Source: Methanobacteriota archaeon
GTDB lineage: Archaea > Thermoplasmatota > Poseidoniia > Poseidoniales > Thalassarchaeaceae
Direction: 5' to 3'
Assembly (NCBI GenBank): GCA_002718215.1
Contig: PBDV01000015.1
Location: 13,723 to 46,079, forward strand
DNA: 32,357 bases
In this document: piece by piece, positions 1-31,762 of the stretch
How positions within the stretch are numbered: the stretch's first letter is position 1
How the letters are laid out: each line of letters opens with the position of its first letter
The notes under the pieces: model-generated
What the model was told of the DNA's origin: nothing
The model's database searches: none
Seen by the model: only the letters and a program-made list of their open reading frames with translations
Translations under genes and position numbers: made by a program

Positions 1-540
1 GATTCTGCTCCATCAGTAATTTCCAAATCTATTGAAGGATTGAGTTTAGATTCTCATGGAATCGAAGAAATCCGGGAGTTTATTTCACATACTTCATCTG
101 TGGTTGCTGTTGCTGCTTATCGTCGTCTAAATTATGAAAACGCCTTGAACTTTCAGGACACTGTGACGTTACTCTCCAATCCATCTGGTGAGGCTATTGA
201 AGCAGTAGTTGACGCTTTTTCTGATGGAATCGAATGGGCAGATGAAGATATTATTGATTTTCTTTTATCAGTTCCTTCTGAATCATTGATTCCTAGATTA
301 GTTAGGCGTTCGCCGAAAAATGCAGTTGATCCTGTTCGAGCTAAGTTAATCTTGGGGCCTTGTAGTGAATTCAGAAAAATCCGATATTTAGAGGATCTCA
401 TTGGTCGAAAATTGGGTTTAGAGACTCTCTCTTCCGTCAAAACAATTTCAGAGGGTGTAGATGAAGGGCCATTAAGAGACATGGCGCTTGAAGTGCTTGA
501 AGATCAAAAATCGTTAGGTAGGGAGGAGGTTAGAGGATGA
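1..540 (+). CDS. Hypothetical protein, 5'-partial
   Basis: The frame is open from the first base of the window, so the gene starts upstream and only its last 179 codons are visible. The visible part looks mostly alpha-helical, with alternating hydrophobic and charged stretches and no membrane segment, signal peptide or recognisable catalytic motif. A HEAT-like helical repeat fold is possible but only a guess. The stop codon overlaps the ATG of the following M61 peptidase gene in an ATGA junction, so the two are almost certainly co-transcribed and translationally coupled. A TTG at 40 could serve as an internal start, but the open frame before it argues for truncation. I do not recognise the family. 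Confidence 0.7.
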   Translation, partial: DSAPSVISKSIEGLSLDSHGIEEIREFISHTSSVVAVAAYRRLNYENALNFQDTVTLLSNPSGEAIEAVVDAFSDGIEWADEDIIDFLLSVPSESLIPRLVRRSPKNAVDPVRAKLILGPCSEFRKIRYLEDLIGRKLGLETLSSVKTISEGVDEGPLRDMALEVLEDQKSLGREEVRG

Positions 541-2342
541 AGCCAATAATACACAGATTGGATGTTTCTACTCGAGATGAGCAACGTTTTCGTTCAGAGA
601 TTGAAGTACCTAATCCAGTTGGTTCAATTTTGGTTATTGCATTTCCGCGTTGGTCTCCTGGTTCATATTTAATTCGCGAGCCTAGGAGGTTAGTTCATGA
701 TTTAAGGGCGTGGGCAACGATTTCAGAAAAAGAAATGGACTGTAAAGTAGAACGACGAGGTCCTGATGAGGTTCGAATCAAAATACCAAAACATGCGACT
801 TCTATGCATGTTGAATGGTTTGCTTTTGGGAATGATTTGAGTGTAAGAACCAATCATATTGATTCAAGTCATTTTCATATGATTCCTTCTGCAACTTTTC
901 CTAGAATAATTAGGGGGTCTTCTGATTCGGAAGGGCCATACCAAGTAGAACTTCTTCATCCCGAGGATTGGTCAGTTACTACTCAATTAAAATCAGTAAA
1001 TTGTATCGATGAAGGAGGGATTATTCGCTCTATTTGGACAGCAGGTTCTCGTGATGCATTGTATGATGGAGTTTTGGAGGCTAATGCAAATCCCGAAGTC
1101 CTCTTTGAAGCAGGAGGTCGGCGATTTAGATTGAAATTATGGGATGCTGGAGGCGTTACCATTGATCCGCAGAGAATCGACTATCTGGTTGAATCAATGA
1201 GTAACTTATTTTCTGAATTTCATGCATTATTTGGAGAGCCACCTTGGGATAATTATGCCGTGATTCTCCACTTAACAGAAAAGGCGAGAGGCGGTTTAGA
1301 ACATACAGGAAGTCAATCTAGTCAGATGCGCAGGGGTTCATTGGATCCTGGCGATAAAGAAGGTTGGAGGGATCTAATTTCCCTTTTATCTCATGAATAC
1401 GTTCATGCATGGAATGTTAAGCGACTTCGGCCCAAAACCTTCGATGATTATGATTTGTCTCAAGAGATGCATACTGATTTACTATGGTGGTTTGAAGGAG
1501 TTACTAGTTGGCTTGGAGATATGATGTGTCTTCGAAGCGGCGTTTGGTCTGATGGAGATTGGGCTGCCGATCTAAAGAGAAAATTAACTCGTTTTCACTC
1601 TATGTCTGGCTGGGATCATCAATGCCTTTCTGAATCTAGCTTTGAGTCATGGTATCATTTGTATCGTCCACATCCTCATTCTTCTGAAACGACGATTTCC
1701 TACTATCTACAGGGCGAAATTGCCGCTATGTGTATGGATTTAGAATTGCGGAGGAGGACAAAGGGAGAAGTCGGTTTAGATGATGTAATGGTGGATCTTT
1801 GGAAGCGACATGGCCTACATATTGAGGGCGACTCCGGTTCAGGGGGATTAGAACCGAGAGCAATTATTGAGCAAGATATCGTTTCTTCAATGAATCGACT
1901 TAGTGGAGGTAAATTGAATGCGGTAGTTCGGCGTTTAGTCCATGGATTAGGTGCACCAAATATGTTGGAATGGTCCAAAGGAATGGGTCGAAAACTTGAG
2001 CCTGTAGAATCAGATGATCCTGTAGGATGGTTAGGTGTCCAACTTTCTGAATCTCCTTTGCGGATTTCTAAATTTTTAGCGGGAAGTCCAGTAAGAGATA
2101 AACTTCAGCCTGGGGACGAGATTGTATCAATTAATGGGCGAAGGACTCGAAAATCATCAGATCTTAAGGGGGCATTGCGTGGACGAGCAGAAGAAAAAGT
2201 TTCATTGACAATTTCACGTAGAGGGGGAATGATGGAGTTTGAAGTAGTTCCTGCTAAGAATCCTTTACATCCAGTATTGATTTCAGGGAATGGTAATCGG
2301 CTTTGGAGAGCATTTTCTTCATCTAAAAGAACTAATGATTAA
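537..2342 (+). CDS. M61 family glycyl-aminopeptidase-like protein with PDZ domain
   Basis: A 601-residue zinc peptidase of family M61. The conserved core is visible: GGLEH at residues 252-256, the zinc-binding HEYVH at 286-290 followed by AWNVKRLRP, and a downstream WWFEG whose Glu320 is the probable third zinc ligand. The N-terminal 180 or so residues match the beta-rich domain of the family (PRWSPGSYLIRE near 37-48). Residues about 490-580 form a C-terminal PDZ domain (GWLGVQL, then GDEIVSINGR). No signal peptide is seen, so it probably acts in the cytoplasm on peptides with small or acidic N-terminal residues; the substrate is family knowledge, not visible here. It is ATGA-coupled to the gene before it and overlaps the convergent ParB-fold gene by 4 bp. 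Confidence 0.93.
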   Translation: MKPIIHRLDVSTRDEQRFRSEIEVPNPVGSILVIAFPRWSPGSYLIREPRRLVHDLRAWATISEKEMDCKVERRGPDEVRIKIPKHATSMHVEWFAFGNDLSVRTNHIDSSHFHMIPSATFPRIIRGSSDSEGPYQVELLHPEDWSVTTQLKSVNCIDEGGIIRSIWTAGSRDALYDGVLEANANPEVLFEAGGRRFRLKLWDAGGVTIDPQRIDYLVESMSNLFSEFHALFGEPPWDNYAVILHLTEKARGGLEHTGSQSSQMRRGSLDPGDKEGWRDLISLLSHEYVHAWNVKRLRPKTFDDYDLSQEMHTDLLWWFEGVTSWLGDMMCLRSGVWSDGDWAADLKRKLTRFHSMSGWDHQCLSESSFESWYHLYRPHPHSSETTISYYLQGEIAAMCMDLELRRRTKGEVGLDDVMVDLWKRHGLHIEGDSGSGGLEPRAIIEQDIVSSMNRLSGGKLNAVVRRLVHGLGAPNMLEWSKGMGRKLEPVESDDPVGWLGVQLSESPLRISKFLAGSPVRDKLQPGDEIVSINGRRTRKSSDLKGALRGRAEEKVSLTISRRGGMMEFEVVPAKNPLHPVLISGNGNRLWRAFSSSKRTND

Positions 2343-2752
2343 CGTAATTTTTCTAGAGGGAAAAATTGTTGCGGATAATCAATCGAGATTGTATGTTTAC
2401 TCGTTTTTGGAGGAAATAAATTACCTGACTCCGCAATTGAAAGAACGGATTGTTTGGTCACAATAATTTCTTCTTTTCCTGGCCACGCTTTTACTTGGAT
2501 TGAATCATCTTCTAGATAATCAACTTCGATTCCAGGAATCAGTTTTAGCCCCAAATGTAATGCGGAATTGTATCGATGATGTCCATCTAGAATAGTTCTT
2601 GTTTTTATGTCCACTAATACAGGTTCAAAGAACCCACCTCTTTTTTCAACCCAATTAATCATTTTTTCAAGGTTTTTTGGCTTGATTTCCTCATGTGGGC
2701 GGAGGTCCTTTACCTTGATTAGGACGACATCCATGCTACTCTCAAGGTTCAT
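2339..2752 (-). CDS. ParB/SerK-fold protein, possible free-serine kinase or nucleotide-binding regulator
   Basis: A 137-residue protein with a ParB-type nucleotide-binding fold. Evidence is the VKDLRPHEE segment (residues 14-22), the EPVLVDIKT strand and the ILDGHHRYNSALHLGL motif (54-69), which matches single-domain ParB-fold enzymes such as archaeal SerK and staphylococcal SbnI more than plasmid ParB. There is no helix-turn-helix DNA-binding domain. In SerK the conserved acidic residue after the PHE motif acts in phosphoryl transfer; the PHEE here is compatible. Function as a serine kinase is an inference. The gene converges on the M61 gene with a 4-bp overlap and diverges from the CCA-adding enzyme gene across 64 bp. 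A second ATG at 2734 is an alternative start. Confidence 0.75.
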   Translation of the reverse strand: MNLESSMDVVLIKVKDLRPHEEIKPKNLEKMINWVEKRGGFFEPVLVDIKTRTILDGHHRYNSALHLGLKLIPGIEVDYLEDDSIQVKAWPGKEEIIVTKQSVLSIAESGNLFPPKTSKHTISIDYPQQFFPLEKLR

Positions 2753-2777
2753 TGATTCAAAACGCCTTGTGCGAAAT

Positions 2778-2818
2778 GAGCGGTTATTTCATTTGAATTG
2801 ACATTGACGAGCGGTTAT
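2778..2818. repeat. 10-bp direct repeat GAGCGGTTAT in divergent promoter region
   Basis: GAGCGGTTAT occurs at 2778-2787 and again at 2809-2818, 31 bp apart, between the divergent ParB-fold and CCA-enzyme genes. The second copy runs into the ATG of the CCA gene. The spacing is about three helical turns, so a regulator site is possible, but no regulator is known to me for this motif. Confidence 0.4.
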
Positions 2819-4124
2819 GGCATCCGCCCCGGCTCACTCTCCAGAGGCCGGGGGCACCCCACTTTCTTCAAAACATCAGGAACTGTTAGGAGTTCTTAAT
2901 CAAGACATAAACAGGGTAATATCCAAGATTTCTGAAGAGGGCTTCTCAATTTGGATTGTGGGGGGCACAGTACGAGATTCAGTGATTGGGTTTCCTCTAA
3001 ATGATATTGATCTTGCAACAAACGCAACACCAAGCGAAGTGTTGAAGTTAATCCCCTCGGCAATTCCTACGGGAATGGAATTTGGAACGGTTACTCTTCC
3101 ATCTACCCTTGATTCTGGTAAAATCGAAATCACTACTTTGAGGACAGATGGTACATATCTAGATGGCCGTAGGCCCGAGTCTGTTCGATTTGGATCTTCA
3201 TTAATGGAGGATCTTCAACGGAGAGATTTCACTGTAAATTCAATGGCGATTGACCCTATACATCGTCTTTTTTATGACCCTCATGGGGGTATTGATGATC
3301 TTCAGAAAGGAGTATTATCGGCAGTCGGAAATCCAATAGAGCGATTAGAAGAGGACGGACTTCGAATCATGCGAGCTTATCGTTTCATGTGCCATCCTTC
3401 TGGCCCATTCGTACCAGATTTAGAACTTTCAGAAGCATTGGTAGAATGTGCAGAATCTTTAGCTCCAGTTTCCAGAGAGAGGATTTGGGTGGAATTTCGA
3501 AAACTCCTCTCATTTCCTAAAGTGTTTGAAGTTCTCAATATGATGGTTGTTCATGGAAATATGGAAAATGTTTGCCCTGGCTTGAATGAAATCGATGATA
3601 TTGATTCTTGTTATTTTGATGGAATTAATGAAAACAGTTTGATGATTGGACGATTTTCATTATTGCTCAAACAAATGAATGAAGAAGATGCTAAAACTAT
3701 ACTGAACGGACTTAGAGTTCCAAATAAAGTTAGAGAATCAGTACTAATTATTCGAGGAAGAATTGGAATCATGCCTAACCCCGAAAGTAAGGGATGTCTT
3801 CGACGGTATAGGATGGCCTTAGGTGATGATTTAGATGCACAAATTTCAGCAGACAGAGGCTTGAATAAAGAAGTAGCAGATAATCTTCGTACCGCACTAA
3901 ATAATCTTCCTCAACTAAGAGGAGGCATAGAGCCATTAGTTGGGGGAGATGAAATATTGACTAGATTAGATATTGAACCAGGGCCTTTATTGGGAGAAAT
4001 TAAGAAATGGTTGTTTAGGATTCAGGTGGAAAATGATCTCGCAGATTCATCATCAGTATGGAATACTGCTGAATCTCTAGGGTTCAAAGGCGAACCAATT
4101 GGCGAGTATAGAATGTGGGTATAA
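2817..4124 (+). CDS. cca: CCA-adding enzyme / tRNA nucleotidyltransferase, class II (bacterial type)
   Basis: A 435-residue nucleotidyltransferase of the class II poly(A) polymerase/CCA-adding family. Visible motifs are GG..RD at 49-54, the metal-binding DID at 63-65, DGRRP near 116-120, the template-like RRDFTVN at 135-141, EEDGLRIMRAYRF and RERIWVEFRKLL. These are the class II hallmarks; archaeal CCA enzymes are normally class I and lack them. The enzyme would add or repair the CCA end of tRNAs in the cytoplasm. The length matches bacterial CCA enzymes without an HD phosphohydrolase domain. The first 20 or so residues (Ala/Ser/Pro-rich) are not typical, so a start further in is possible. 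A poly(A) polymerase role cannot be excluded from sequence. Confidence 0.9.
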   Translation: MASAPAHSPEAGGTPLSSKHQELLGVLNQDINRVISKISEEGFSIWIVGGTVRDSVIGFPLNDIDLATNATPSEVLKLIPSAIPTGMEFGTVTLPSTLDSGKIEITTLRTDGTYLDGRRPESVRFGSSLMEDLQRRDFTVNSMAIDPIHRLFYDPHGGIDDLQKGVLSAVGNPIERLEEDGLRIMRAYRFMCHPSGPFVPDLELSEALVECAESLAPVSRERIWVEFRKLLSFPKVFEVLNMMVVHGNMENVCPGLNEIDDIDSCYFDGINENSLMIGRFSLLLKQMNEEDAKTILNGLRVPNKVRESVLIIRGRIGIMPNPESKGCLRRYRMALGDDLDAQISADRGLNKEVADNLRTALNNLPQLRGGIEPLVGGDEILTRLDIEPGPLLGEIKKWLFRIQVENDLADSSSVWNTAESLGFKGEPIGEYRMWV

Positions 4125-4640
4125 TCACAATTCAGCTAAATAGTCCACATATTCTTCTCCACTGAGGAGATCATCGTAATCGAATCCATCCTGTGGTCTA
4201 ATTATTACGAACCATCCATCCCCATATGGGTCTCGATTAACATATTGGGGGTTATTTTCGACTTCACCATTCATACTCATTATTGAGCAAGCAAATGGAG
4301 TAAGAATATTCAACGTCTCAAATTCACACTGTAGGCCCACTAGATTGTCATCAGTTGAGAGTTCCCCCATGGCTCCTGTTTCCTCTTTTTCTTCATCTTT
4401 TGAAACGATTTCTTCATCTTCATGATTTTCATCATCAGACGGAATAAGAAAATCACTTCCATCTGTAATATTTGGAAGAGTCGCCTTTAGTATGCGTCCA
4501 AAATCCACTCTGATAAAATCAGAGATACCGATTTTGTATTCTTCGAAATCGTCGTTTGGTCCACTGATTAATTGGAACCACAAGTGTTCCTGAGTGTATC
4601 TTCTTCCTACTGCTATGCTGAACTCATCCTCGTCGCTCAT
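4125..4640 (-). CDS. GcvH-like lipoyl-domain protein lacking the lipoylation lysine
   Basis: A 171-residue protein resembling glycine cleavage H protein. It has RYTQEHLWF (residues 14-22; compare the YT.EHEW opening of GcvH), the YKIGISDFIRVDFGRILKATLP strand region, and the C-terminal VNRDPYGDGWFVIIRP, nearly the GcvH consensus. Two features are odd. The lipoyl hairpin, normally ESVKA, reads ETLNI with Asn111 where the modified lysine should be, and about four residues are missing from the hairpin. An acidic insertion (about residues 69-90, rich in Asp/Glu) interrupts the domain. It therefore probably cannot carry lipoate and may be a structural or regulatory paralogue. It ends directly at the stop of the CCA gene and diverges from the acyl-CoA dehydrogenase gene. 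Confidence 0.8.
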   Translation of the reverse strand: MSDEDEFSIAVGRRYTQEHLWFQLISGPNDDFEEYKIGISDFIRVDFGRILKATLPNITDGSDFLIPSDDENHEDEEIVSKDEEKEETGAMGELSTDDNLVGLQCEFETLNILTPFACSIMSMNGEVENNPQYVNRDPYGDGWFVIIRPQDGFDYDDLLSGEEYVDYLAEL

Positions 4641-4757
4641 GTACTAGCCTCATGGCGCGGCCGTTGCAATCTAATTTCAATTATTCGCTTATTTTGATAT
4701 TTTTTGAGAGTGCATCTCTTCCGAACGATTCACAAACGGAGCATTACTGGGAGGGGC

Positions 4758-5930
4758 ATGGACTTCCAAGAAACCGAAGAACAGACGATGATTCGAGACT
4801 TAGTTAGAGACTTTGCAGAATCTGTATTGGCACCAACCGCTCTAGAGCGCGATCGTCATCAAAAACCTCCAACAGAAGAGTGGGCTCAATTCATCGAATA
4901 TGGGCTTCATACCTGTACTATTCCAGAAGAATATGGAGGCACTCCTCTTGACGATATTTCTGAGGCTATAATTGTAGAAGAACTCTCACGTGTTGACCCG
5001 TCATTCGGAGTTTACTATTGTGTACATGTTGGACTTTGTAGCATGACGATTTCATTGCATGGAAATGAGCAACAGAAAGCAAAATATTTGCCGATGTTGG
5101 CAACTGATAAATTGGGTGCTTATTCTCTTTCAGAAGCAGGCGCTGGAACAGATGCTGCAGCCATGGTCTGTAAAGCTAAGATTTCTGATGATGGAAGTCA
5201 CTACATTCTCAATGGGGAAAAGATGTGGGTTACGAATGGGGCTACTGCAGACATTTTCGTTCTTTTCGCTAAAGATGTAGATCATCCTGATTATGGCGTC
5301 AAGAAGCATGGGGGAACAACTGCATTTATTGTTGAGAAAGAGTTTGAGGGCTTTTCCGTTGGTAAGAAGGAAGATAAGTTGGGAATCAGAAGTAGTGACA
5401 CTTGTACATTAGTATTGGAAAATTGCAAGGTGCCTGTAGAGAATGTATTGAAGGAACCTGGAAAAGGATTCCCAATCGCCATGAATGCTTTAGATAATTC
5501 TAGAATTGGAATTGCTGCTCAAGCATTAGGTATTGCTCAAGGCGCATTAGATGCTGCAGTTCGGTATTCACATGAAAGAGAAGCGTTTGGAAAGCCACTT
5601 GCCTATCACCAATCGATTGGCAATTATTTAGCAGATATGGCAACCCAGACTGACGCAGCTAGACTAATGGTCTATCGAGCAGCTTGGGCCAAAGAACAAC
5701 ATTATCATCACGGAGGAAGACGCCATACGAAAGAAGCCAGTATGGCAAAACTCTTCGCAGGAGATAATGCAATGTGGGTAGCAGAAAGAGCGGTTCAAGT
5801 TCTAGGTGGTTATGGATATACTACTGATTTCCCTGTTGAGAGATTCTTTAGAGATGCTAAGATTACTCAAATTTATGAAGGAACACAGGAAGTTCAGAGA
5901 ATTGTGATTAATCGTGCTTTAGGCGATTGA
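4758..5930 (+). CDS. Acyl-CoA dehydrogenase (short/medium-chain type)
   Basis: A 390-residue FAD-dependent acyl-CoA dehydrogenase that would introduce the alpha-beta double bond into an acyl-CoA and pass electrons to ETF. Evidence: the SLSEAGAGTDAAAM segment (123-136) and WVTNGATADIFVLF (157-170) of the FAD/substrate domain, FGKPLAYHQSIGNYLADMA, QVLGGYGYTTDFPVERFFRDAKI, and QIYEGTQE with the catalytic base at Glu374. The start at 4758 (MDFQETEEQ) is chosen because family members begin this way and GGAGGGG precedes it; a GTG at 4704 would add 18 unrelated residues. Chain-length preference cannot be read from the sequence. It is followed directly by the Asp-box lipoprotein, whose role may be unrelated. 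Confidence 0.95.
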   Translation: MDFQETEEQTMIRDLVRDFAESVLAPTALERDRHQKPPTEEWAQFIEYGLHTCTIPEEYGGTPLDDISEAIIVEELSRVDPSFGVYYCVHVGLCSMTISLHGNEQQKAKYLPMLATDKLGAYSLSEAGAGTDAAAMVCKAKISDDGSHYILNGEKMWVTNGATADIFVLFAKDVDHPDYGVKKHGGTTAFIVEKEFEGFSVGKKEDKLGIRSSDTCTLVLENCKVPVENVLKEPGKGFPIAMNALDNSRIGIAAQALGIAQGALDAAVRYSHEREAFGKPLAYHQSIGNYLADMATQTDAARLMVYRAAWAKEQHYHHGGRRHTKEASMAKLFAGDNAMWVAERAVQVLGGYGYTTDFPVERFFRDAKITQIYEGTQEVQRIVINRALGD

Positions 5931-5974
5931 GATTCTATGCGCAAGATAATTGTCTGATACCTCCTCGCAAGTAC

Positions 5975-7468
5975 ATGCGAGGCGCAACTCTGTTGGTCAG
6001 TTTCATGTTACTGACTGCAGTATTGCCTGGTTGTCTCAAAGAAGATATTCCGTCTCCTCCACCCCTTGTAGAACCTGAATTTCCTTCAACATTCGTAACA
6101 GGTGCCGATGGACTTCCAGTGGATGAAGAATTAATCCCTATGTCCTTTACTTTCAGTGATGTAGGAGAAACCGGAAAAGAACCTAGTATTGGTATAACTT
6201 CTAGTGGTTGTATTTTCTTTATTGCGATGGAGAAAGTAATGAGGTCCTGTGATTATGGAGAATCATGGGTTGAAACACAAGATCCGGTTCAATGTTCTCC
6301 TACTACAAGTGACCCATATGGTTGGGTAGATCCAATTACAGATAGAATATTCAATGTTCAAATGATTGGATTAGAAACATCTTGGATTTGTTGGAGCGAT
6401 GATGATGGTGAATCTTGGTTGGGCAATCCTCATGATTCAGGAACAACTCCAATTAACGATCACATCAAACTTGCAAGTGGTCCATGGACCGATTCTGGGT
6501 ATGGGGCTTTAGGGCAGTTTACTAGCGGATTTTATGAAACTGCAGTTTACTATTGTTACAACAAACTCGCGGGGATTTTTTGTTTCACCAGTTTTGATGG
6601 TGGTGCAACCTTTGAAGCAGGTGGTCAAATCATCGGTTTAGCCACTACAAATGGTGGTCTACATGGTGCTATATCAACAGCTCCAGATGGAACAGTATAT
6701 GTTACACCGCGTGTAGAAACTCCAACTGTAATCGTTTCCAAGGATAATGGATTTACTTGGTTTGAACGTTCCATGGGGGAAGATGTCGGAACTCCTTATC
6801 CTAGAAAGAATTCTGAGGTTTCAACGGACTCTGAATCAAATGCATATCATGTTTGGACTGGAGGTGATGAAGGTGTTTACATGTCTAGATCAACAGATTC
6901 AGGAGAAACTTGGGAGCAAGAGAGTATCCGAATTTCTCCCGCTGGTGTAATCTCTTCCGTGTTTCCTCAAACCGATGCAGGCGAACCTGGAAGAATAGCG
7001 GTAACTTATCTTGGCAGTCAAAATTCTGAGATGTTGAATCAATCCGATATCGATGGCAATGCTTGGGATGGAAATGCACACTATGCTCCGAATAATGTGA
7101 CCTATCATCTTTACATTACTTTCAGCCTTAACGCATTGGATGAGAATCCGGTTTTCCATACTTATCGAGTAACAGATGATCCTGTTCAAGTCGGTTCTAT
7201 CTGTCTAAATTCAGGTGATTGTAGAGATATTGGTGGATCAAACCGTAACTTGTTAGATTTCAATGACTTACATATCGATAGAGAAGGTCGTGTTTATGTT
7301 GCCTTTGCAGATGGTTGCACAGGTGAGTGTGCAAGCAATGAGAATTCAACTGCTGAAGATTCAAGAGATGGTAGAGGTTCTGTATACTATCTTTCTAGTG
7401 GACCAAGTTTGTTTGAATCATTTGGCGATCTTGAACCTTTGTTGATTCCAATCGAAAATGAAGAATAA
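5975..7468 (+). CDS. Secreted lipoprotein with Asp-box (BNR/sialidase-like) beta-propeller
   Basis: About 497 residues from the ATG at 5975. A short basic N-terminus, a hydrophobic core and the lipobox-like LPGC at residues 17-20 predict an exported lipoprotein anchored through Cys20. The body carries five Asp-box motifs of the form S.D.G.TW: CDYGESW, DDDGESW, DGGATF, KDNGFTW and TDSGETW, which mark six-bladed sialidase/BNR propellers. No sialidase Arg triad or FRIP motif is apparent, so glycosidase activity is not supported; it may bind or act on surface or environmental polymers. A TTG at 5927 overlapping the previous stop would add 16 residues that break the signal peptide. The gene may be co-transcribed with the acyl-CoA dehydrogenase gene before it. 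Confidence 0.8.
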   Translation: MRGATLLVSFMLLTAVLPGCLKEDIPSPPPLVEPEFPSTFVTGADGLPVDEELIPMSFTFSDVGETGKEPSIGITSSGCIFFIAMEKVMRSCDYGESWVETQDPVQCSPTTSDPYGWVDPITDRIFNVQMIGLETSWICWSDDDGESWLGNPHDSGTTPINDHIKLASGPWTDSGYGALGQFTSGFYETAVYYCYNKLAGIFCFTSFDGGATFEAGGQIIGLATTNGGLHGAISTAPDGTVYVTPRVETPTVIVSKDNGFTWFERSMGEDVGTPYPRKNSEVSTDSESNAYHVWTGGDEGVYMSRSTDSGETWEQESIRISPAGVISSVFPQTDAGEPGRIAVTYLGSQNSEMLNQSDIDGNAWDGNAHYAPNNVTYHLYITFSLNALDENPVFHTYRVTDDPVQVGSICLNSGDCRDIGGSNRNLLDFNDLHIDREGRVYVAFADGCTGECASNENSTAEDSRDGRGSVYYLSSGPSLFESFGDLEPLLIPIENEE

Positions 7469-7506
7469 TAATCATCAATCAGTGGTTCAGATTAGTCTGA
7501 CTATAG

Positions 7507-9078
7507 TTAGTCTACCCATCGATATCGGCGTTCTCCTGGGAGGCCGCCATTTACTTCTCGTACTATTGCGAATTCTTGGCTTGGTTCAATGATTGATTCC
7601 GTGGTACTCCCCCGATGCAATGCTTCGTAATCATCACTAAGGATTGGCCGTCGAAGGTCCAATCGTTCAAACAGTAGGAATCTAGAGGCAATTTCTTTCC
7701 ATTGAGGTTGAATAATCCCTTCGAAAACTTTGGCTTTAGCTCCAGAACCATATCCGCATAATCCTATTCTTTGCCCTTCAATAGCATTATTTTCATCATA
7801 ATCACATTCTAGTGAAGACATCAATGCAAGAAAAATCGAACCAGTATATTGGTTACCAATTAGACTTGAAGCCCTTTGCCCACGTTCAATCCTTTCATCT
7901 GCGAATTTCTTGAATTCCGTTGTTTTCGAAATTGCTCGCCTATAGGCATCATTTGCTTTATCGAATTCGGCGATTCCTTCGGGTGTGTCTTCAAAGTCTT
8001 CAATTAGAGGCTCAACGCCAATTTCTTCCACGATGTTGTCCCAAACAGGAGTTCCTCTTCGATCATGCCTGAATACATCCGGGAACATCCTCTTTCCTTG
8101 GAATGCATATGGAAGATGAACAATAATTCGCTTCCATTGTTCAGTAAGAATTGGATCAGTCTTTGGATTTAGGCGACCACTTCTCTCTGCTTTTCCATGA
8201 AAATCGATAAATGCCTGTTTTACTGATTCCATGTAACATCTATTCGAGAATTGTCCATCAAAAACTGGTGTATCTCTGTGAATCTTCAATGTATCCTCTG
8301 CGAATAATTCGTCGTTAGACATCTTAGAACCACGAAGATTTCTCATCATACGGTCACTAAGTCCCGATTTGAATGACTGCCCTGTCTCACGTGCTAAATC
8401 TAAAACTCGTTCGATTACATTCTTGACTGGTACTTCTCTTCTCGGTTTGAAGAAATCATGTACGGGTGTGGTCGATACTCCCCAGTTATCTGGAATTACC
8501 AACAATCGAGGATTGGCTCTGATTAAGATGCCTCCTCCTCCTGCTCCCTGAGTATATTCTCCACTCGATTCCATGTCGTACTTGGCATTATCACTGAAAA
8601 CAACAATTCCAATTCGCTCTTCTCGTTCCCCCCCTCTGGCAACCCAATCAAGGGTGTTGTGGAGTGCATCTACAGCGCCGATACAAGCGAAAGTCATGTC
8701 GACGACATCACAATTTCTGAAACTGTCTGGTCCAAATTCTTTGGCATATCTTTGTTGTAGCATGTCGATAATGTACGTTGCAGTAGGTTTCGCTCCATCC
8801 AATGCTGACTCGGTCCCTAGGTATATTCTCCCTATTTGGGATGGTGATAACCCGTTTCGATCGATTAGTCTAGCAACTGCATTCGCTCCCATAGTTGCAG
8901 TATCTTCGTGTGCATCTGGAATTGCCATTGCATTGAGCCCCAATCCCTTATTCAGTTTCTCGAAATCGGCACCTCTGAATTTGGCAAAATCCTTCATGTC
9001 GAAATAGAGGCGTGGGAAATGAATTGCAAAATCATCAATGCCAACATCCATCGTAATCATCTCTAGCGGCTGCCTCAT
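7507..9078 (-). CDS. Hydroxymethylglutaryl-CoA synthase
   Basis: A 523-residue thiolase-superfamily enzyme condensing acetoacetyl-CoA and acetyl-CoA to HMG-CoA for the mevalonate pathway to archaeal isoprenoid lipids. Catalytic positions are visible: GTES with Glu90, TFACIGA with Cys132 as acylated nucleophile, and IVHLPYAFQGK with His321. FSDNAKYDMESSGEYTQGAGG and GYGSGAKAKVFEG also match the family. It is longer than many homologues because of an insertion of roughly 55 residues between HDFFKPRR (207-214) and DTPVFDGQFSN (269-279). A TATA-like box about 23 bp upstream of the first ATG suggests a leaderless transcript starting at 9078; the ATG at 9051 (MDVGIDDF) is an alternative. TyrRS lies upstream on the same strand. 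Confidence 0.93.
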   Translation of the reverse strand: MRQPLEMITMDVGIDDFAIHFPRLYFDMKDFAKFRGADFEKLNKGLGLNAMAIPDAHEDTATMGANAVARLIDRNGLSPSQIGRIYLGTESALDGAKPTATYIIDMLQQRYAKEFGPDSFRNCDVVDMTFACIGAVDALHNTLDWVARGGEREERIGIVVFSDNAKYDMESSGEYTQGAGGGGILIRANPRLLVIPDNWGVSTTPVHDFFKPRREVPVKNVIERVLDLARETGQSFKSGLSDRMMRNLRGSKMSNDELFAEDTLKIHRDTPVFDGQFSNRCYMESVKQAFIDFHGKAERSGRLNPKTDPILTEQWKRIIVHLPYAFQGKRMFPDVFRHDRRGTPVWDNIVEEIGVEPLIEDFEDTPEGIAEFDKANDAYRRAISKTTEFKKFADERIERGQRASSLIGNQYTGSIFLALMSSLECDYDENNAIEGQRIGLCGYGSGAKAKVFEGIIQPQWKEIASRFLLFERLDLRRPILSDDYEALHRGSTTESIIEPSQEFAIVREVNGGLPGERRYRWVD

Positions 9079-9096
9079 CTCATATGAATGAGTGTC

Positions 9097-9107
9097 CTAT
9101 TTTTACC
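9097..9107 (-). promoter_or_regulatory. Putative TATA box (HMG-CoA synthase)
   Basis: The minus strand reads GGTAAAAATAG, centred about 23 nt before the ATG at 9078. This is the distance expected between an archaeal TATA box and a start site at or next to the ATG, so the gene may be transcribed leaderless in addition to read-through from TyrRS. Confidence 0.4.
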
Positions 9108-9135
9108 GGTTAAAACACTAAAAATTGGCTTATTT

Positions 9136-10281
9136 TCAACCACCGGTCATCTTATTCACAGCATCTAACAGTTCAGGTTTTTCATCAAAATGTTCTGAAA
9201 TAGGTGCTAGTATCTCAGTCAATCCACGGGCAATTGCCATTTTGGCATCGAAAGGATGCACAGTTCCATCATTTACTGCAGAAATTAGTGAATCTAGATC
9301 TGACCAAGAAGATGGTTCTCCAAATTCAGGTTTGGGTTGAACGTGCAATTCTCCTTGACTTGGCATTATTACGTGTTTAGCGATCTCATATACTGGCGAA
9401 TCCGAATTTCCAGGCTCAAGAAATGCTTTTCGAAATTTCTTTTCCAATTTTTTAGCCGTATCGTGTAACAATACTGCATTATTTGGGTCTGATTTTGACA
9501 TTTTGTGGTCGAATGAATCCATTCTACCACCTCCTCTCCCTTTCAATCCAGACAGCATAGGTGTATGGATACATGTTGCCTTAATCCATTGGTTTCGGTC
9601 TCCAACATCTCTCATGTACATGTGTGCTTTACGTTGATCCATTCCTCCAAATGCGATGTCTACATTTAATTCGAAAATATCCGCAGCCTGCATAGCTGGA
9701 TAAAAGAAAGCAGAAAGATCGTCATCAGATGAGTCTTCACTCCTACCCATTATGCTGAAAGTTCTTCTTGCCCTCGAAAGACTCATGCCCTTGGAACATC
9801 TTAGAACCCTCTCCCAGTATTTTCCTGAATCCATCAATTCACTTGCTCTCATGAATCTAATTTGTCCAGCGCCATCGCCTTCATCCGGGAATCCAAGTAG
9901 AACTCTGAATACTTCAGACATGTAGTCCCCAGCAATCGAAATTTTATCCATATCTCTATCGAACTTATCATTTACCCATGCATGCCAATCTGCTAGGAAA
10001 ACTAGAACATTCACTCCTTGATTTAGCATATTTCTAATCGAATCTGCTAGAATAATCCAACCAAGGTGTGCCTTTCCACTTGGCTCTAGGCCGATATATG
10101 CTCTTAGAACCGAATCTCCGCCATGTGAATTATTTCCATTCAGTACTGAAACCACATGTTCTAATCCAACAATTTCCTCTACTCCACCAAACATCGACAA
10201 AATCTTTCCTCGATTTTGTTCAGTTAATTCTGAGGAACCTGTTGTTTCATCTAAAAGACGATTGATTTCCTCCGGAGTCAT
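9136..10281 (-). CDS. tyrS: Tyrosyl-tRNA synthetase (archaeal/eukaryotic type)
   Basis: A 381-residue class I aminoacyl-tRNA synthetase charging tRNA-Tyr. Visible elements are GLEPSGKAHLGW (64-75, the HIGH motif as HLGW), LADWHAWVNDK, YPAMQAADIF, the tyrosine-pocket region FGGMDQRKAHM, and KMSKS at 260-264. GLEPSGK, GGMDQRK and the ending HPFDAKMAIARGLTEIL line up with archaeal TyrRS rather than TrpRS. The start at 10281 is preferred because GAGGGA stands before it and it leaves 13 bp to the upstream gene; the longest frame (to 10326) would overlap that gene by 32 bp. It is the middle gene of a three-gene minus-strand run. Confidence 0.93.
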   Translation of the reverse strand: MTPEEINRLLDETTGSSELTEQNRGKILSMFGGVEEIVGLEHVVSVLNGNNSHGGDSVLRAYIGLEPSGKAHLGWIILADSIRNMLNQGVNVLVFLADWHAWVNDKFDRDMDKISIAGDYMSEVFRVLLGFPDEGDGAGQIRFMRASELMDSGKYWERVLRCSKGMSLSRARRTFSIMGRSEDSSDDDLSAFFYPAMQAADIFELNVDIAFGGMDQRKAHMYMRDVGDRNQWIKATCIHTPMLSGLKGRGGGRMDSFDHKMSKSDPNNAVLLHDTAKKLEKKFRKAFLEPGNSDSPVYEIAKHVIMPSQGELHVQPKPEFGEPSSWSDLDSLISAVNDGTVHPFDAKMAIARGLTEILAPISEHFDEKPELLDAVNKMTGG

Positions 10282-10294
10282 TGGTTTTCCCTCA

Positions 10295-10807
10295 TTAATT
10301 GAGCAACTTGGATAGTTTTTCACCACGTCCAGCTGCTTTGGTATTATCTCCAGCCTCTAGGGCTGCTTCAATTTCTTCAATCAATGATTCAGCCTTTTCC
10401 CTTGTTTCGTCTGGAAGGTTGTTTGCTAGCGACATAAAATGTCTAGCAGAAGAAATTGCGGATTTTGCTTTATTGGCCTTTTTACCCCATTCTTTTGCCT
10501 TGTCTCCACGTTTCTTCGCATCATACCCTGTTGATTCATCTAAGAATTGAGTCCATCGAACCCGATCTTGCTGTGCTTCCTTAATTGAATCTGGATTTGA
10601 AAAATCCGGTTTTTCGTTGTCTACTTCTACGATTAGTGCATCGCCATCATAATGTGCTTCAATACTTTTCATTATGCCATGTGAGCCTTTGAATGCATTT
10701 TCTCCTGTTGATTCTACATTATCAAAGAATTTCTTTGCCAATTCAGCTAATCCACCGTCTGCAGTAACCTGCTTGACCAATCCTCTTGTCGTTGCGAAGC
10801 GTTCCAT
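10295..10807 (-). CDS. Hypothetical helical protein
   Basis: A 170-residue protein of unknown family. Its N-terminal third contains a short beta segment (EAHYDGDALIVEVDN); the remainder is a charged, Lys/Glu/Ala-rich helical region with probable coiled coil (about residues 85-170, including KRGDKAKEWGKKANKAK). There is no signal peptide or membrane segment, so it is probably cytosolic. The ATG at 10807 is chosen because GGGAGGGGC precedes it; the longest frame would add 22 arginine-containing residues read through the promoter. It lies 13 bp upstream of TyrRS, probably in one operon, and diverges from the propeller-protein gene at 10903 through a striking inverted repeat. Confidence 0.75.
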   Translation of the reverse strand: MERFATTRGLVKQVTADGGLAELAKKFFDNVESTGENAFKGSHGIMKSIEAHYDGDALIVEVDNEKPDFSNPDSIKEAQQDRVRWTQFLDESTGYDAKKRGDKAKEWGKKANKAKSAISSARHFMSLANNLPDETREKAESLIEEIEAALEAGDNTKAAGRGEKLSKLLN

Positions 10808-10906
10808 GCCCCTCCCGGTGAGGCGAGAGGACTTGAATGCTCCCAGTGGGGAAAGAAGACTTGGACCGTTCACATGATGAAGTCGAGCGTCCCCGGAGGG
10901 GCATGG
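10804..10906. repeat. Perfect 12-bp inverted repeat covering both start codons of a divergent pair
   Basis: CCATGCCCCTCC at 10804-10815 is the exact reverse complement of GGAGGGGCATGG at 10895-10906. Each arm contains the purine-rich ribosome binding site and the ATG of one of the two divergent genes. The spacer is 79 bp. The same 12-mer occurs at the acyl-CoA dehydrogenase start (4750-4761). Confidence 0.85.
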
Positions 10907-12123
10907 GCCGAGGCCGTCCGGGAGTCATTTTAGTGCTTTTTTTGGCATTTCTTGTTGTGCCCGTGCATGCTGAATCGGTAGTGAAGTCCGATGAATCTGT
11001 AACTCTAAGTGATGAATCTATTTTTCTTAATGCTCTTGATTCTAATCACATTGAATCTTTGGCCGTAGGTGAGGAGGGCGTTGTTTTCTCAATACCAAAT
11101 GATAGCCCGCAAGAGGCAATTCAACTTGAATCGATAACCGATCAAAACCTCAATGCTGTTGATTTCCATCCCGCTGGAAATGCATTCATCGTAGGAGATT
11201 TGGGGAGAGTGCTCCGATATGATTACCAAGATCAACGTTTATCCAATGTTTCTGGAACATCTTTAGTCGAGATTAGCACACTAACTTCAGTTGCTTGGAA
11301 TACAAATGGTGCTTGGGCATATATTGCTGCAGATTCGGGTCGTATTTGGAGATTCAGATCTTTAGTTGATGGTGGTGAGATGTATGCCCTAGAAAATACT
11401 CGAGAAAGTCCAGTGAAAGGTATTGATTGCCATTCTGTAGTTCGATTATGTGTTGTTATTACAGAATCTGATGGTATTGCAATAATAGATGCTGAACATG
11501 AAGTTACATGGCTTGGAGGAACTGCAACAATTTGGAATGACGTAGAATGTGCAAGTGACAATATCGCCGTTTGTGTTGCAGTAGGGGCTAATCGATACAT
11601 TGGCACAATTCGATTGGATGATTCTTCAAACGGTGAAACCATTCTAGATGCGGAAATGCTTAGTGAATTAGAAAGTGAATTATCTAGCATTTGTGGACAT
11701 AGCGAGGATAGAATGATGATTGGCACCACCCCCTATGGATTAATCGATTTTCGACCATCATCCGAGGATGCATTTCCCTGGTATGAGCATTCTGATGCCG
11801 CTGATCAACAATTGGAAATTACCACTAGTCCAGTGGTATGTTCTTGGAGTACTTCTGAAGCAACAGGGTGGCTACTAAATTCTAGAGGTGAAGCGATTAG
11901 TTTTGTTCCAATAGAAATTGAAAATCCGTTGCTAACTAGCCTAGCGGGTTACGCTTTGGCAGTTGTTGTTGTAATCAGTGTCCCTGGAATTGTTGTTGGC
12001 TTGATTTTCATGAATAGTCCAAAGATGCAGGCAGCATATTCTCGATGGCGAAGAAAACGCAAGGGGTTGGAGCCATCGTTGAAGGAAAAGCGGGAAGAAA
12101 GGAGGAAGCGGGACCGTTCATAA
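10903..12123 (+). CDS. Membrane-anchored beta-propeller (WD40-like) surface protein
   Basis: A 406-residue type I membrane protein. The N-terminus (MGRGRPGVILVLFLAFLVVP, then VHA) is a clear signal peptide. The ectodomain has repeated propeller-like strands such as LNAVDFHPAGNAFIVGD, SVAWNTNGAWAYIAAD and GRIWRF, resembling WD40/YVTN blades without strict WD dipeptides. A single transmembrane helix lies near residues 345-370 (SLAGYALAVVVVISVPGIVV), followed by a strongly basic cytoplasmic tail (RWRRKRKG, then EKREERRKRDRS). A role in binding or in surface structure is inferred; no enzyme motif is seen. The start at 10903 is preferred over an ATG at 10837 because it starts the signal peptide and has GGAGGGG before it. 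Glutaryl-CoA dehydrogenase follows after 66 bp. Confidence 0.75.
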   Translation: MGRGRPGVILVLFLAFLVVPVHAESVVKSDESVTLSDESIFLNALDSNHIESLAVGEEGVVFSIPNDSPQEAIQLESITDQNLNAVDFHPAGNAFIVGDLGRVLRYDYQDQRLSNVSGTSLVEISTLTSVAWNTNGAWAYIAADSGRIWRFRSLVDGGEMYALENTRESPVKGIDCHSVVRLCVVITESDGIAIIDAEHEVTWLGGTATIWNDVECASDNIAVCVAVGANRYIGTIRLDDSSNGETILDAEMLSELESELSSICGHSEDRMMIGTTPYGLIDFRPSSEDAFPWYEHSDAADQQLEITTSPVVCSWSTSEATGWLLNSRGEAISFVPIEIENPLLTSLAGYALAVVVVISVPGIVVGLIFMNSPKMQAAYSRWRRKRKGLEPSLKEKREERRKRDRS

Positions 12124-12189: not shown

Positions 12190-13365
12190 ATGGCATACGA
12201 AGCATTGGATTTCTTTGACGTCGATAAGATGTTGACTGAAGAGGAGCTAATGCTCCGAGATATGGTTAGGGATTGGGTAGACGAGAAGGTAATTCCCAAT
12301 ATAGAAAAGGCATACAATGAGGCATATTTCCCTGAAGAATGGATTAGAGATCTTGGAGAAATGGGCGTTCTTGGGATGGTAGTTCCTGAAGAATATGGTT
12401 GTGCAGGTATGTCTTACACTGCTTACGGCGTTGTATGCCGGGAGTTGGAACGTGGAGATTCAGGTTTGCGTTCATTCTGTAGCGTACAAGGTTCTTTGTC
12501 CATGCATCCAATTCACAAATTTGGAACAGAGGAACAGAAACACAAGTATCTCCCTGGAATGGCTACGGGCGAAATTATTGGTTGCTTTGGATTAACTGAA
12601 CCCGATTACGGCTCTAATCCGGGTGGCATGATTACTAAGGCAGAGAAGGTCGATGGAGGATATATCCTGAATGGAGCCAAAATGTGGATTACCAATGGTA
12701 CTGTTGCAGATATTGCAATAGTTTGGGCCAAGTTAGATGGAGAAATTCGCGGATTCATTGTTGATAAGGACGACGAAGGATTCAGTGCTCCCGAGCAGAA
12801 GGGAAAGCATTCACTTCGAGCATCCGTTACATCAGAACTGGTACTTCAGGATGTTTTTGTTCCTGATGATCGATATTTGCCTGGTGCAAAGGGATTGGGG
12901 GGTCCATTTTCTTGCCTTAATCGCGCTCGTTATGGGATTGCATGGGGCTCTATTGGTTCGGCTCAAGCATGTTTTGACGCTGCAAAGAAATACTCGTTGG
13001 AAAGAATCCAATTCGATCATCCAATTGCCGCATATCAGCTTATTCAGATGAAACTCGCAACCATGTTAAGAGAGATTACCAAGGGGCAACTTCTTGCATA
13101 TCATCTAGGTCGTAGAGTGGATGAGGATGATTGGTTCCCAGAGATGATTAGTTTAGCGAAAATGAACAATGTCGATATTGCTCTAGATATTGCTAGGGTG
13201 GCCAGAGACATTCATGGTGCGAATGGTGTTACTGACGAATATCCAATAATGCGTCATATGAACAATCTTGAATCTGTTAAGACCTATGAAGGAACTCACG
13301 ATATTCACAATTTGATTCTTGCTCGCCATATTACTGGCATACAATCCTTTACTCGCAAATTGTGA
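12190..13365 (+). CDS. gcdH: Glutaryl-CoA dehydrogenase-like acyl-CoA dehydrogenase
   Basis: A 391-residue flavoenzyme most like glutaryl-CoA dehydrogenase, which oxidises and decarboxylates glutaryl-CoA to crotonyl-CoA in lysine and tryptophan breakdown. Supporting segments are LRSFCSVQGSLSMHPI (Arg94 at the position of the glutarate-binding arginine), GCFGLTEPDYGSNPGGM, KMWITNG, KGKHSLRAS, GGPFSCLNRARYGIAWG, and TYEGTHDIHNLILARHITGIQ with catalytic Glu367. The match runs to the C-terminus, so this is a firmer substrate assignment than for most acyl-CoA dehydrogenases. AAGGGGAGAG precedes the ATG. The methyltransferase gene follows after 9 bp. Electrons would pass to ETF, encoded about 4 kb downstream. 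Decarboxylation should be treated as inferred, since non-decarboxylating relatives exist. Confidence 0.9.
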   Translation: MAYEALDFFDVDKMLTEEELMLRDMVRDWVDEKVIPNIEKAYNEAYFPEEWIRDLGEMGVLGMVVPEEYGCAGMSYTAYGVVCRELERGDSGLRSFCSVQGSLSMHPIHKFGTEEQKHKYLPGMATGEIIGCFGLTEPDYGSNPGGMITKAEKVDGGYILNGAKMWITNGTVADIAIVWAKLDGEIRGFIVDKDDEGFSAPEQKGKHSLRASVTSELVLQDVFVPDDRYLPGAKGLGGPFSCLNRARYGIAWGSIGSAQACFDAAKKYSLERIQFDHPIAAYQLIQMKLATMLREITKGQLLAYHLGRRVDEDDWFPEMISLAKMNNVDIALDIARVARDIHGANGVTDEYPIMRHMNNLESVKTYEGTHDIHNLILARHITGIQSFTRKL

Positions 13366-13374
13366 GGTTTTGCA

Positions 13375-14001
13375 ATGCGTCCTGCTGTAGATGTATTTGG
13401 TGAGTGGGCTGACATTGGTAAGGATGAAGGGATGGAAAAGGGGCATGCTCCATCCGTAAATGAGATTCTAAATGCTGCATTCAAAGAATTAAATCCCGAA
13501 ACAATCGAAAGAGGATTTTCAGCTATTGATGCAGGTTGTGGGAATGGCTGGGGAGTCAGATTATTTTCTGCACATGACAATTGCTCCATGGCAATTGGAG
13601 TTGATGGCGCTGAATCAATGGTATTGCGAGCATTGGAGAAAGACCCTGAAGGAATGTATTTTCACGCTAATCTAAGTAAATGGTCACCTCCAGAAATGGT
13701 TGATTTAGTTCATTCAATGGAGGTTCTGTATTATCTTGATGATATTCCCGATTTTTTGAATCGAGTTAGAGAAGAATGGTTGGTTTCGGGGGGCGTTCTT
13801 GCTTTTGGCGTTGATCATTATGCGGAAAACAAGGATAGTTTAGATTGGTCAGAGAAGGTAGGAGTTCGCATGGCTACTCATTCTGAACAAGAGTGGGCAT
13901 CTATGGTTCAACAAGCAGGCTTTGAAATTTTGAAATGTTTTAGAGCCGCTGCCAATGATAATTGGGCTGGAACATTATCTTTTATTGCTCGGAAAATATG
14001 A
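13375..14001 (+). CDS. SAM-dependent methyltransferase, class I
   Basis: A 208-residue Rossmann-fold methyltransferase. Motif I is AIDAGCGNGWG (about residues 48-58), followed by the acidic ribose-binding strand IGVDGAESM, the VDLVHSMEVLYYLDD motif and a post-motif region GGVLAFGVDHY. Substrate is unknown: the fold and length suit a small molecule or quinone-like acceptor, but nothing in the sequence decides this. It lies 9 bp after the glutaryl-CoA dehydrogenase gene and is surely co-transcribed with it; the functional link is not evident. Confidence 0.85.
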   Translation: MRPAVDVFGEWADIGKDEGMEKGHAPSVNEILNAAFKELNPETIERGFSAIDAGCGNGWGVRLFSAHDNCSMAIGVDGAESMVLRALEKDPEGMYFHANLSKWSPPEMVDLVHSMEVLYYLDDIPDFLNRVREEWLVSGGVLAFGVDHYAENKDSLDWSEKVGVRMATHSEQEWASMVQQAGFEILKCFRAAANDNWAGTLSFIARKI

Positions 14002-14030
14002 AAATATTGATGATTTTCAATCCGTGATGA

Positions 14031-14040
14031 TTATGATAGG
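14031..14040 (+). promoter_or_regulatory. Putative TATA box upstream of membrane subtilase
   Basis: TTATGATAGG is centred about 23 nt before the ATG at 14058. The same TTATGAT heptamer stands about 27 nt before tRNA-Ser at 28431. The geometry fits an archaeal TATA box with a leaderless transcript. Confidence 0.35.
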
Positions 14041-14057
14041 GAACTCATGGGCGTCTC

Positions 14058-17115: not shown

Positions 17116-17135
17116 TACATCAGTGGATGAATTGA
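17096..17135 (+). repeat. Perfect 20-bp tandem duplication at the end of the PAP2 gene
   Basis: TACATCAGTGGATGAATTGA occurs at 17096-17115 and is repeated without a gap or mismatch at 17116-17135. The first copy encodes the C-terminus (HQWMN) and stop; the second lies outside the frame. Confidence 0.95.
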
Positions 17136-17211
17136 AAAATCTAGATTTCACGATAAAACCTAATCTTGATAGAGGCGTTTTGATTGGTCGGATTACTCAC
17201 GAGGTGACCTT

Positions 17212-17973
17212 ATGGATATAGCCGTTCTAATCAAGTACGTCCCCGACACGACTGCAAAGATTTCAATCAGTGGAGGAAGAGTTGACGAGTCAAGCGTTAG
17301 CAAGTGGTCAATTAGCCCCTTTGATGAGTATGCTCTTGAGGCTGCTTTGGGTATGAAAGATTCTGCCGGCGCTACCGTAATTGCAGTTACGTGTGGCCCT
17401 TCCCGTTCAGAGAAAGGGCTTAGGGATGCTGCTGCTGTAGGTGCTGACTCTCTTGTCCATATTGTTGTTGATGATTTAATGACTCTCGACTCTACGAAGA
17501 TTCAGGGTTTACTAGCAGGAGCAGTAAAGCATACTGGAGCAGATGTTGTTTTCTGTGGGAAACAGGCTGCAGATACTAATTCAGGTAGTACTGGACCAGG
17601 TGTAGCTGAACTGATTGGTGCGGCTTGTGTGACCAACGCTTCTGAGATTTCTCATGATGGTTCTTCTTTCGGTGTATTACGGCCCGCATCAAATGGTTCT
17701 GAACGTGTAAGTGTACAGACTCCTTGTGTTATTGCTTTTGATAAGACTTCTACCGAATTACGTAGACCAAATGTAAAGGGAATTATGATGGCAAAGAAGA
17801 AGCCAATTGAATCAATGGACTCAGGTTCCTTAGGTGTGGATGTATCTGGATCAACAGCACAGATAAATTCTCAATCTCCTCCTGCTGAAAAGGCCCCAGG
17901 TCAGATGTTTGATGGAGCAGAAAGTGTTCGTGAAGTTGTTCAGAAACTCAGAAATGAGGCAAAGGTGCTCTAG
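17212..17973 (+). CDS. etfB: Electron transfer flavoprotein beta subunit
   Basis: A 253-residue ETF beta subunit, the AMP-binding half of the heterodimer that takes electrons from acyl-CoA dehydrogenases. Family features are IAVLIKYVPDT at the N-terminus, SKWSISPFDEYALEAAL (31-47), DAAAVGADSLVHI, and GADVVFCGKQAADTNSGSTGPGVAE with the adenine-nucleotide-binding loop. The C-terminus is slightly extended after KKPIE. GAGGTGA precedes the ATG at normal spacing, and a possible TATA box (GATAAAAC, 17152-17159) lies upstream. It forms an operon with etfA 11 bp downstream. The two acyl-CoA dehydrogenases in this window are plausible electron donors. Confidence 0.95.
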   Translation: MDIAVLIKYVPDTTAKISISGGRVDESSVSKWSISPFDEYALEAALGMKDSAGATVIAVTCGPSRSEKGLRDAAAVGADSLVHIVVDDLMTLDSTKIQGLLAGAVKHTGADVVFCGKQAADTNSGSTGPGVAELIGAACVTNASEISHDGSSFGVLRPASNGSERVSVQTPCVIAFDKTSTELRRPNVKGIMMAKKKPIESMDSGSLGVDVSGSTAQINSQSPPAEKAPGQMFDGAESVREVVQKLRNEAKVL

Positions 17974-17984
17974 GAGGTGTAAGA

Positions 17985-18902
17985 ATGGAAATTACAATTA
18001 TTGCTGAAACAAATGAAAATGGGATTCATCCAGTAACTGCTCAAATGGTCGCTGCATCTTCTTCATTGGGGTCCAAACCAACGATTCTATGCCCTGGCGG
18101 AATTGGATCTGATTCTGCAGCGTCTATCGATGGTGTTGGCGCAGTAATTGGAGTTGAAGGCGATTGTTTCTCCTCATTTGATGGCGGAGCATGGGCTTCA
18201 GCATTGAATAGCGCAATTTCTGGAGGTACAGTTTTCACCGCATCAACTCCAAATGGTCGGGAGATGGCCGCTCGAATCGCTGCAGCACGGGGCGTTCCTG
18301 TAGTTCAAGATGTGACTGGTGTATCCTCAGGTATTACAGTTTCTCGACCAATTTATTCAGGTAAAGCCATGGAAGAAGTTAGTGTTTCAGGAGATTGCGT
18401 CCTTAGTATTCGTCCCAATGCATTTAGTCCATCTGGTTCAGGTGGTTCAGCATCCATATCTACTGTGAATCATTCATCTGATGTTTCGGTAACTGTGATG
18501 GAAGCAATTGCTAAAGCCAGTGAACGGCTTGATGTTTCTGATGCAGATATTGTGATTTCTGGAGGTCGAGGAATGGGCAATATCGATAATTGGGCAGAAT
18601 TAGAGGCAGTTGCAGATCAGATTGGCGCTGCCGTGGGTGCTTCCAGAGCTGTAGTCGACGAATGGGGGCTTTCCCATAGTATTCAGGTCGGCCAAACTGG
18701 AAAGGTTGTTACTCCAACTCTATACATTGCTGTAGGAATTTCTGGAGCGATTCAACATCTTGCTGGTATGCGTTCATCCAAGTTTATCGTTGCGATTAAC
18801 AAGGATGCAGATGCGCCTATCTTTGGTGTCGCAGACTACGGGATAGTAGCTAACTGGGAAGATGCTCTACCTGCACTAAAGGATGCATTATCTTCACTCT
18901 GA
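17985..18902 (+). CDS. etfA: Electron transfer flavoprotein alpha subunit
   Basis: A 305-residue ETF alpha subunit that binds FAD. The C-terminal FAD domain shows IVISGGRGMG, AAVGASRAVVDEWG, IQVGQTGKVVTPTLYIAVGISGAIQHLAGM and FIVAINKDADAPIFGVADYGIVAN, the standard signature. The N-terminal domain (about 1-180) is the less conserved alpha/beta domain. AGGAGGTG stands just before the ATG. The stop abuts the stop of the convergent propeller-PKD gene. The electron acceptor, normally ETF:quinone oxidoreductase, is not encoded in this window. Confidence 0.95.
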   Translation: MEITIIAETNENGIHPVTAQMVAASSSLGSKPTILCPGGIGSDSAASIDGVGAVIGVEGDCFSSFDGGAWASALNSAISGGTVFTASTPNGREMAARIAAARGVPVVQDVTGVSSGITVSRPIYSGKAMEEVSVSGDCVLSIRPNAFSPSGSGGSASISTVNHSSDVSVTVMEAIAKASERLDVSDADIVISGGRGMGNIDNWAELEAVADQIGAAVGASRAVVDEWGLSHSIQVGQTGKVVTPTLYIAVGISGAIQHLAGMRSSKFIVAINKDADAPIFGVADYGIVANWEDALPALKDALSSL

Positions 18903-31744: not shown

Positions 31745-31762
31745 GTATGAAGAGGGGAGCAG

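Follow-up and report, generated by a model that had tools for sequence, protein, structure and literature searches.

Locus organization and gene neighbourhood

The window analysed here is a stretch of 32,357 bp of contig PBDV01000015.1, from a genome of the family Thalassarchaeaceae, and its relevant features are collected in Table 1. The gene under study, hereafter called the paralogue, encodes a GcvH-like protein without the lipoyl lysine and stands head-to-head with the gene of an acyl-CoA dehydrogenase, the closest NCBIfam models of which are short-chain types, such as the acryloyl-CoA reductase AcrC, matched below cut-off. A strict rule recovers this arrangement in 62 of the 65 loci; of the remaining three, one starts at a contig end, in another the dehydrogenase is hidden by an over-long ORF call, and the third (L096) is seemingly a true exception. 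Only three of 41 common local adjacencies are kept both in Thalassarchaeaceae and in the sister family Poseidoniaceae, namely the paralogue/dehydrogenase pair (20/20 and 37/37), a CCA enzyme and a ParB-like protein that also stand head-to-head, and a third pair. Both start codons, that of the paralogue and that of the dehydrogenase, could be located in 38 loci, in which they are 109-138 bp apart, and TATA-like elements facing both directions were read by eye in the intergenic alignment. Several other genomes also have electron transfer flavoprotein (ETF) genes close to the pair, and the downstream neighbours of the paralogue differ between the two families.

Table 1. Features of the paralogue locus and of related genes, numbered from the first nucleotide of the window.
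Feature	Position	Strand	Remarks
Lysine-less GcvH paralogue, CDS	4125..4640	-	171 aa, stop codon included; intact ORF
Predicted hairpin (codons 99-113), lipoyl-lysine carrier in canonical GcvH	4302..4346	-	AlphaFold2 strands 99-105 and 109-113
Codon 111 (Asn), lysine replacement according to the preliminary description	4308..4310	-	Return strand, by alignment and model
Codon 107 (Phe), lipoyl-lysine column	4320..4322	-	Alignments
Acidic, predicted disordered insertion (codons 59-90)	4371..4466	-	pLDDT < 50; Thalassarchaeaceae-like family only
Divergent intergenic region, putative two-way promoter	4641..4757	.	117 bp; length kept across the order
Acyl-CoA dehydrogenase, head-to-head neighbour	4758..5930	+	390 aa, Pfam; pairing conserved across the order
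Second acyl-CoA dehydrogenase	12190..13365	+	Clade differs from that of the head-to-head enzyme
Electron transfer flavoprotein beta and alpha genes	17212..18902	+	Acyl-CoA oxidation context

In the window, the ParB-like protein (137 aa; 2339-2752, minus strand) and the CCA-adding/polyA-polymerase-type gene (2817-4124, plus strand) are likewise head-to-head, an arrangement conserved throughout Poseidoniales, with 20/20 and 24/24 loci in the two families. The second acyl-CoA dehydrogenase and EtfBA (12190-18902) are located 8-14 kb from the paralogue and are separated from each other by genes for a methyltransferase-like protein, a subtilase (14058-15818) whose N-terminal region is seemingly membrane-spanning, a MOSC protein and a PAP2 protein. 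Further along, the window encodes an RCC1-repeat protein (22500-24482), which has Asp-rich repeats at its C-terminus and is likely membrane-anchored, and a predicted surface protein of 1079 aa (28583-31822), which contains numerous Asp-rich DxDGDG repeats and matches no Pfam family.

Another contig of the same genome encodes a canonical gcvH, in which the lysine of ESVKS is present as usual and for which the preliminary description had suggested looking; gcvP, gcvT and an LplA-family (lipoate/biotin-ligase-family) protein are also encoded in that genome. The lysine-less gene, which is unlinked to the gcv genes, is therefore an extra copy and not a damaged only copy.

Family assignment and predicted fold

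Pfam GCV_H (PF01597) is the sole Pfam match of the paralogue (51.4 bits; cut-off 22.2 bits), and it was matched by all 37 orthologues searched (37/37). The NCBI gcvH equivalog model TIGR00527, which the canonical GcvH of the same genome passes with 141.0 bits, is failed by the paralogue (47.8 bits versus a curated cut-off of 115.85), and the cut-off of the not_gcvH model TIGR03077 is not reached either (30.3 versus 144.05). The AlphaFold2 model of the window paralogue is of moderate confidence (mean pLDDT 70, with the hairpin in the 80s), and the model of a Poseidoniaceae orthologue, which has no insertion, is better (pLDDT 82.7). With both models, all 22 significant Foldseek matches in the PDB were GcvH structures, the best being 1onl and 1htp, with 3ab9 also among them; TM-scores by target length were mostly 0.7-0.8, and biotinyl domains matched only at E > 0.05. 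The sequence profile search also pointed to GcvH. The GcvH-like nature first noticed at the two ends of the protein is thus borne out by both the Pfam score and the solved structures matched best.

The window protein also carries an acidic insertion, which makes it about 32 residues longer than its Poseidoniaceae counterparts, not about 20 as initially estimated; residues 59-92 include 14 D/E and 2 K/R, and residues 59-90 are predicted to be disordered, with pLDDT below 50. The insertion is missing from the Poseidoniaceae orthologues in the alignment and, being also predicted disordered, was rejected as a defining trait of the paralogue.

The lipoyl-lysine column and other diagnostic residues

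The lipoyl lysine is absent, as had been claimed, although the residue in its place is not the one first named. All alignments, including that of 65 orthologues, assign Phe107 to the lysine column and require no gap in the window protein when it is set against canonical GcvH, and the AlphaFold2 model puts E106-F107-E108 at the tip of the hairpin; Glu70 of the Poseidoniaceae orthologue occupies the same column and the tip of its own model. Across the 65 orthologues the column holds E (26), D (15), N (8), Y (6), F (3), S (3), H (2), L (1) and Q (1), and lysine in none, so that the statement that the protein cannot be lipoylated there is well supported. Asn111, which the preliminary description took for the substitute, is ruled out as such by the alignment register and the model, and lies in the return strand. 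The hairpin described as about four residues shorter was a product of pairing ETLN with ESVK by eye, which forced a false four-residue deletion.

No lysine is found near the tip of the window paralogue. Its only lysines are K36, K52, K81 and K85, and its C-terminal 86 residues are therefore lysine-free. In most Poseidoniaceae orthologues a lysine follows the tip at a distance of two residues, for example residue 72 of L129, where K/R is common in that family and not invariant; elsewhere R, T, V, S or A takes this position (T109 in the window), and since it varies it is not a conserved attachment point. A displaced lysine was consequently rejected as the lipoyl site, being neither conserved nor present in the C-terminal half of the window protein.

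Column-by-column comparison of the paralogues with canonical GcvH sequences revealed the loss of the canonical invariants E15 (the glutamate of the HEW motif), A32, Q33, E63, S64 and K66, and of the near-invariants E43, V65, S69 and G77. The last, which is the glycine of the ExxKx10G motif, is kept in only about half of the paralogues, and the glutamate of the motif is lost. The helix and strand residues lost near the arm are A32, Q33, L36, D38, V40 and E43, and the HEW glutamate, present in 100% of canonical sequences, is replaced by L, V, I or M. By position, the HEW glutamate corresponds to Glu-14 of E. coli GcvH and canonical S69 to Ser-67. In the E. coli protein, Glu-12 and Glu-14 keep the loaded arm locked inside its pocket, and release of the arm is guarded by Ser-67 (PMC7733448). 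The core residues Y15, H19, W21, G38, N124, P131, N135, Y139, W143 and Y164 are retained by the paralogue. New fixed positions are E6, F7, R13, L20, Q23, S40, G48, V127, E163 and E170, and two residues that GcvH does not fix, G125 and E128, have become near-invariant. The losses in the arm hairpin and in the pocket thus indicate that both are gone and that another set of conserved residues has taken their place. Among the orthologues C105 and C118 vary, and a redox thiol was therefore discarded.

Distribution, phylogeny and selection

Throughout the order Poseidoniales (MGII) the lysine-less copy is a regular gene. It is present in 46 of 48 genomes of Thalassarchaeaceae and in all 30 sampled genomes of Poseidoniaceae (30/30); of the two genomes lacking it, one is 74% complete and the other consists of 260 contigs with an estimated completeness of 93%. 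A wider sample of the phylum gave the same distribution, with a sharp drop outside the order. All GcvH examined from 20 other Thermoplasmatota genomes keep the lysine, including those of marine group III, a label that we infer for relatives belonging to the same class. In marine group III gcvH adjoins gcvT and has no acyl-CoA dehydrogenase beside it, which disposes of an origin of the paralogue next to such an enzyme there.

In the maximum likelihood tree the 35 paralogues tested form one clade (support 100/100) with a long stem of 1.34 changes per site, separate from the clade of canonical Poseidoniales GcvH. The best explanation is an ancient GcvH paralogue, fixed before the two Poseidoniales families split; a recent or genus-level oddity is ruled out by this order-wide single clade. 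Within the genus, dN/dS values of 0.03-0.1 denote strong purifying selection, and the protein is therefore functional; 18 columns are invariant across the order and the ORF is intact in nearly all genomes. One contig titled Nitrospiraceae bacterium UBA2166 (L095; DCWI01000095.1, positions 1-10942) also carries the Poseidoniales paralogue and the genes around it; this is archaeal DNA that was almost certainly assigned to the wrong bin.

Proposed role and alternative explanations

Taken together, these data are best read as describing an ancient GcvH paralogue that lost lipoylation and was kept as a non-carrier adaptor or regulatory subunit, probably acting on the acyl-CoA dehydrogenase/ETF system, a reading to which we assign a probability of about 0.5. 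According to this scenario, one GcvH copy would have lost lipoylation and been retained for another job; its hairpin, unable to carry an acyl or aminomethyl group, would belong to a protein engaged in protein-protein contacts, probably co-expressed with the dehydrogenase and acting on it or on ETF, and the process affected would be the oxidation of fatty or branched acyl-CoA. The constant head-to-head pairing suggests co-expression, and this makes a role in acyl-CoA oxidation the leading guess, with the dehydrogenase as the putative partner. The pairing itself indicates shared regulation at most, not binding. The apparent sharing of a two-way promoter suggests that a carrier fold has been recycled as a non-carrier partner protein. 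The idea of a repurposed H-protein scaffold, already put forward in the preliminary description, is well supported by the lysine-free column, the separate canonical gcvH and purifying selection. Neither of the circumstances that it named as counting against it applies, since the tip has no lysine close by and none of the orthologues has retained the residue. Among the roles it offered, lipoate transfer is unsupported with the attachment lysine absent, as is a redox regulator with no conserved cysteine, and a structural partner survives as an option. Its observation therefore stands in substance, two details apart, and its interpretation was right in outline.

The CCA enzyme/ParB-like pair is conserved equally well. 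The adjacency could thus reflect no more than a general tendency of divergent pairs to stay together, and the paralogue might be a neofunctionalised adaptor whose partner has nothing to do with the acyl-CoA dehydrogenase, the pairing being merely a stable chromosomal arrangement; the family-specific downstream neighbours agree with this. Yet the two head-to-head pairs survive where hardly any other adjacency has been preserved, and the narrow range of the intergenic gap fits a functional shared promoter, and we regard an unrelated partner as rather doubtful. Alternatively, the protein could still serve glycine cleavage, docking on GcvP, GcvT and Lpd as a decoy or assembly H-protein that lowers or organises activity by competing with lipoylated GcvH. 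The presence of the glycine cleavage system in the genome and the retention of the fold, with the C-terminal residues N124, P131, N135, Y139, W143 and Y164, are compatible with such a decoy. A decoy, however, should keep the docking face, whereas A32, Q33, D38, E43, the HEW glutamate and ESVKxxS are lost and partly replaced by other fixed residues, and the gene is unlinked to gcv genes, unlike gcvH of marine group III. Since the residues surrounding the arm and the docking region have diverged and others have acquired a new, fixed identity, a decoy is less likely than an adaptor, and we consider it improbable.

Two further explanations fare worse. That the protein is still a carrier, lipoylated or acylated at a displaced lysine, draws on the lysine at the +2 position of most Poseidoniaceae orthologues; the variability of that position, the lysine-free C-terminal half of the window protein and the known need of attachment enzymes for a lysine exactly at the hairpin tip make this very unlikely. 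The loss of an essential GcvH residue might equally be expected of a decaying, pseudogene-like copy, a notion left with practically no probability, refuted as it is by the low dN/dS, the near-universal intact ORF and the invariant columns. At the other end, a more ambitious version of the adaptor reading sees in the protein a dead H-protein that became a core component of the Poseidoniales acyl-CoA dehydrogenase/ETF system, an order-wide non-carrier regulator possibly coupling glycine and one-carbon metabolism with fatty-acid oxidation; we put it forward as an unlikely but conceivable extension.

Poseidoniales rank with the most abundant archaea of the plankton and are, to our knowledge, uncultured. 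Because nearly all of them carry a gene that is annotated as GcvH but whose product cannot be lipoylated, tallies of glycine cleavage genes based on genomes come out too high for this order, and the gene points to an undescribed protein probably linked to acyl-CoA oxidation. Our verdict is that the fold is known and the subfamily new, with a putative new role.

Comparison with known systems

The paralogue shares with GcvH (PF01597, TIGR00527) the fold over its whole length, the conserved Y, H, W, G and P, the N..P..N...Y..GW pattern and the C-terminal Y, and differs from it in lacking the lipoyl lysine, the ExxKx10G motif and the HEW glutamate and in scoring below the TIGR00527 cut-off. The open-access literature searched, a limited library, yielded no report of a prokaryotic GcvH without the lysine. 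Two prokaryotic side branches are nevertheless comparable. LbpA of sHdr sulfur oxidation, a lipoylated protein with a strictly conserved lysine and linkage to hdr-like genes (PMC6067878), is likewise derived from GcvH and has a separate role and genomic setting, but the paralogue lacks its lysine, does not conserve the two cysteines of most LbpA and, with acyl-CoA dehydrogenase, CCA enzyme and ParB-like neighbours, has no hdr-like linkage. GcvH-L of Staphylococcus and Streptococcus (5a35), which has the same fold according to Foldseek, keeps Lys56, lipoylated by the LplA2 of its macrodomain/sirtuin operon (PMC4518038), whereas the paralogue has neither the lipoyl lysine nor an LplA2/sirtuin/macrodomain operon.

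Simiate/Abitram (FAM206A), a proposed H-protein descendant with a non-carrier role that is described as restricted to eukaryotes (PMC3859600), is a possible distant parallel. The BADC proteins, relatives of BCCP without the biotin motif, serve plant acetyl-CoA carboxylase as subunits for assembly or inhibition (PMC11926652) and, by analogy only, resemble the paralogue as carrier-domain proteins without a modification site that are kept as non-catalytic subunits; they demonstrate that a change of role like the one proposed here does occur. BADC is nevertheless related to BCCP and acts on acetyl-CoA carboxylase, whereas all significant structure matches of the paralogue are GcvH. If the proposed role is true, the paralogue would give BADC a counterpart among prokaryotes, a protein of the swinging-arm type that was retained after losing its arm.
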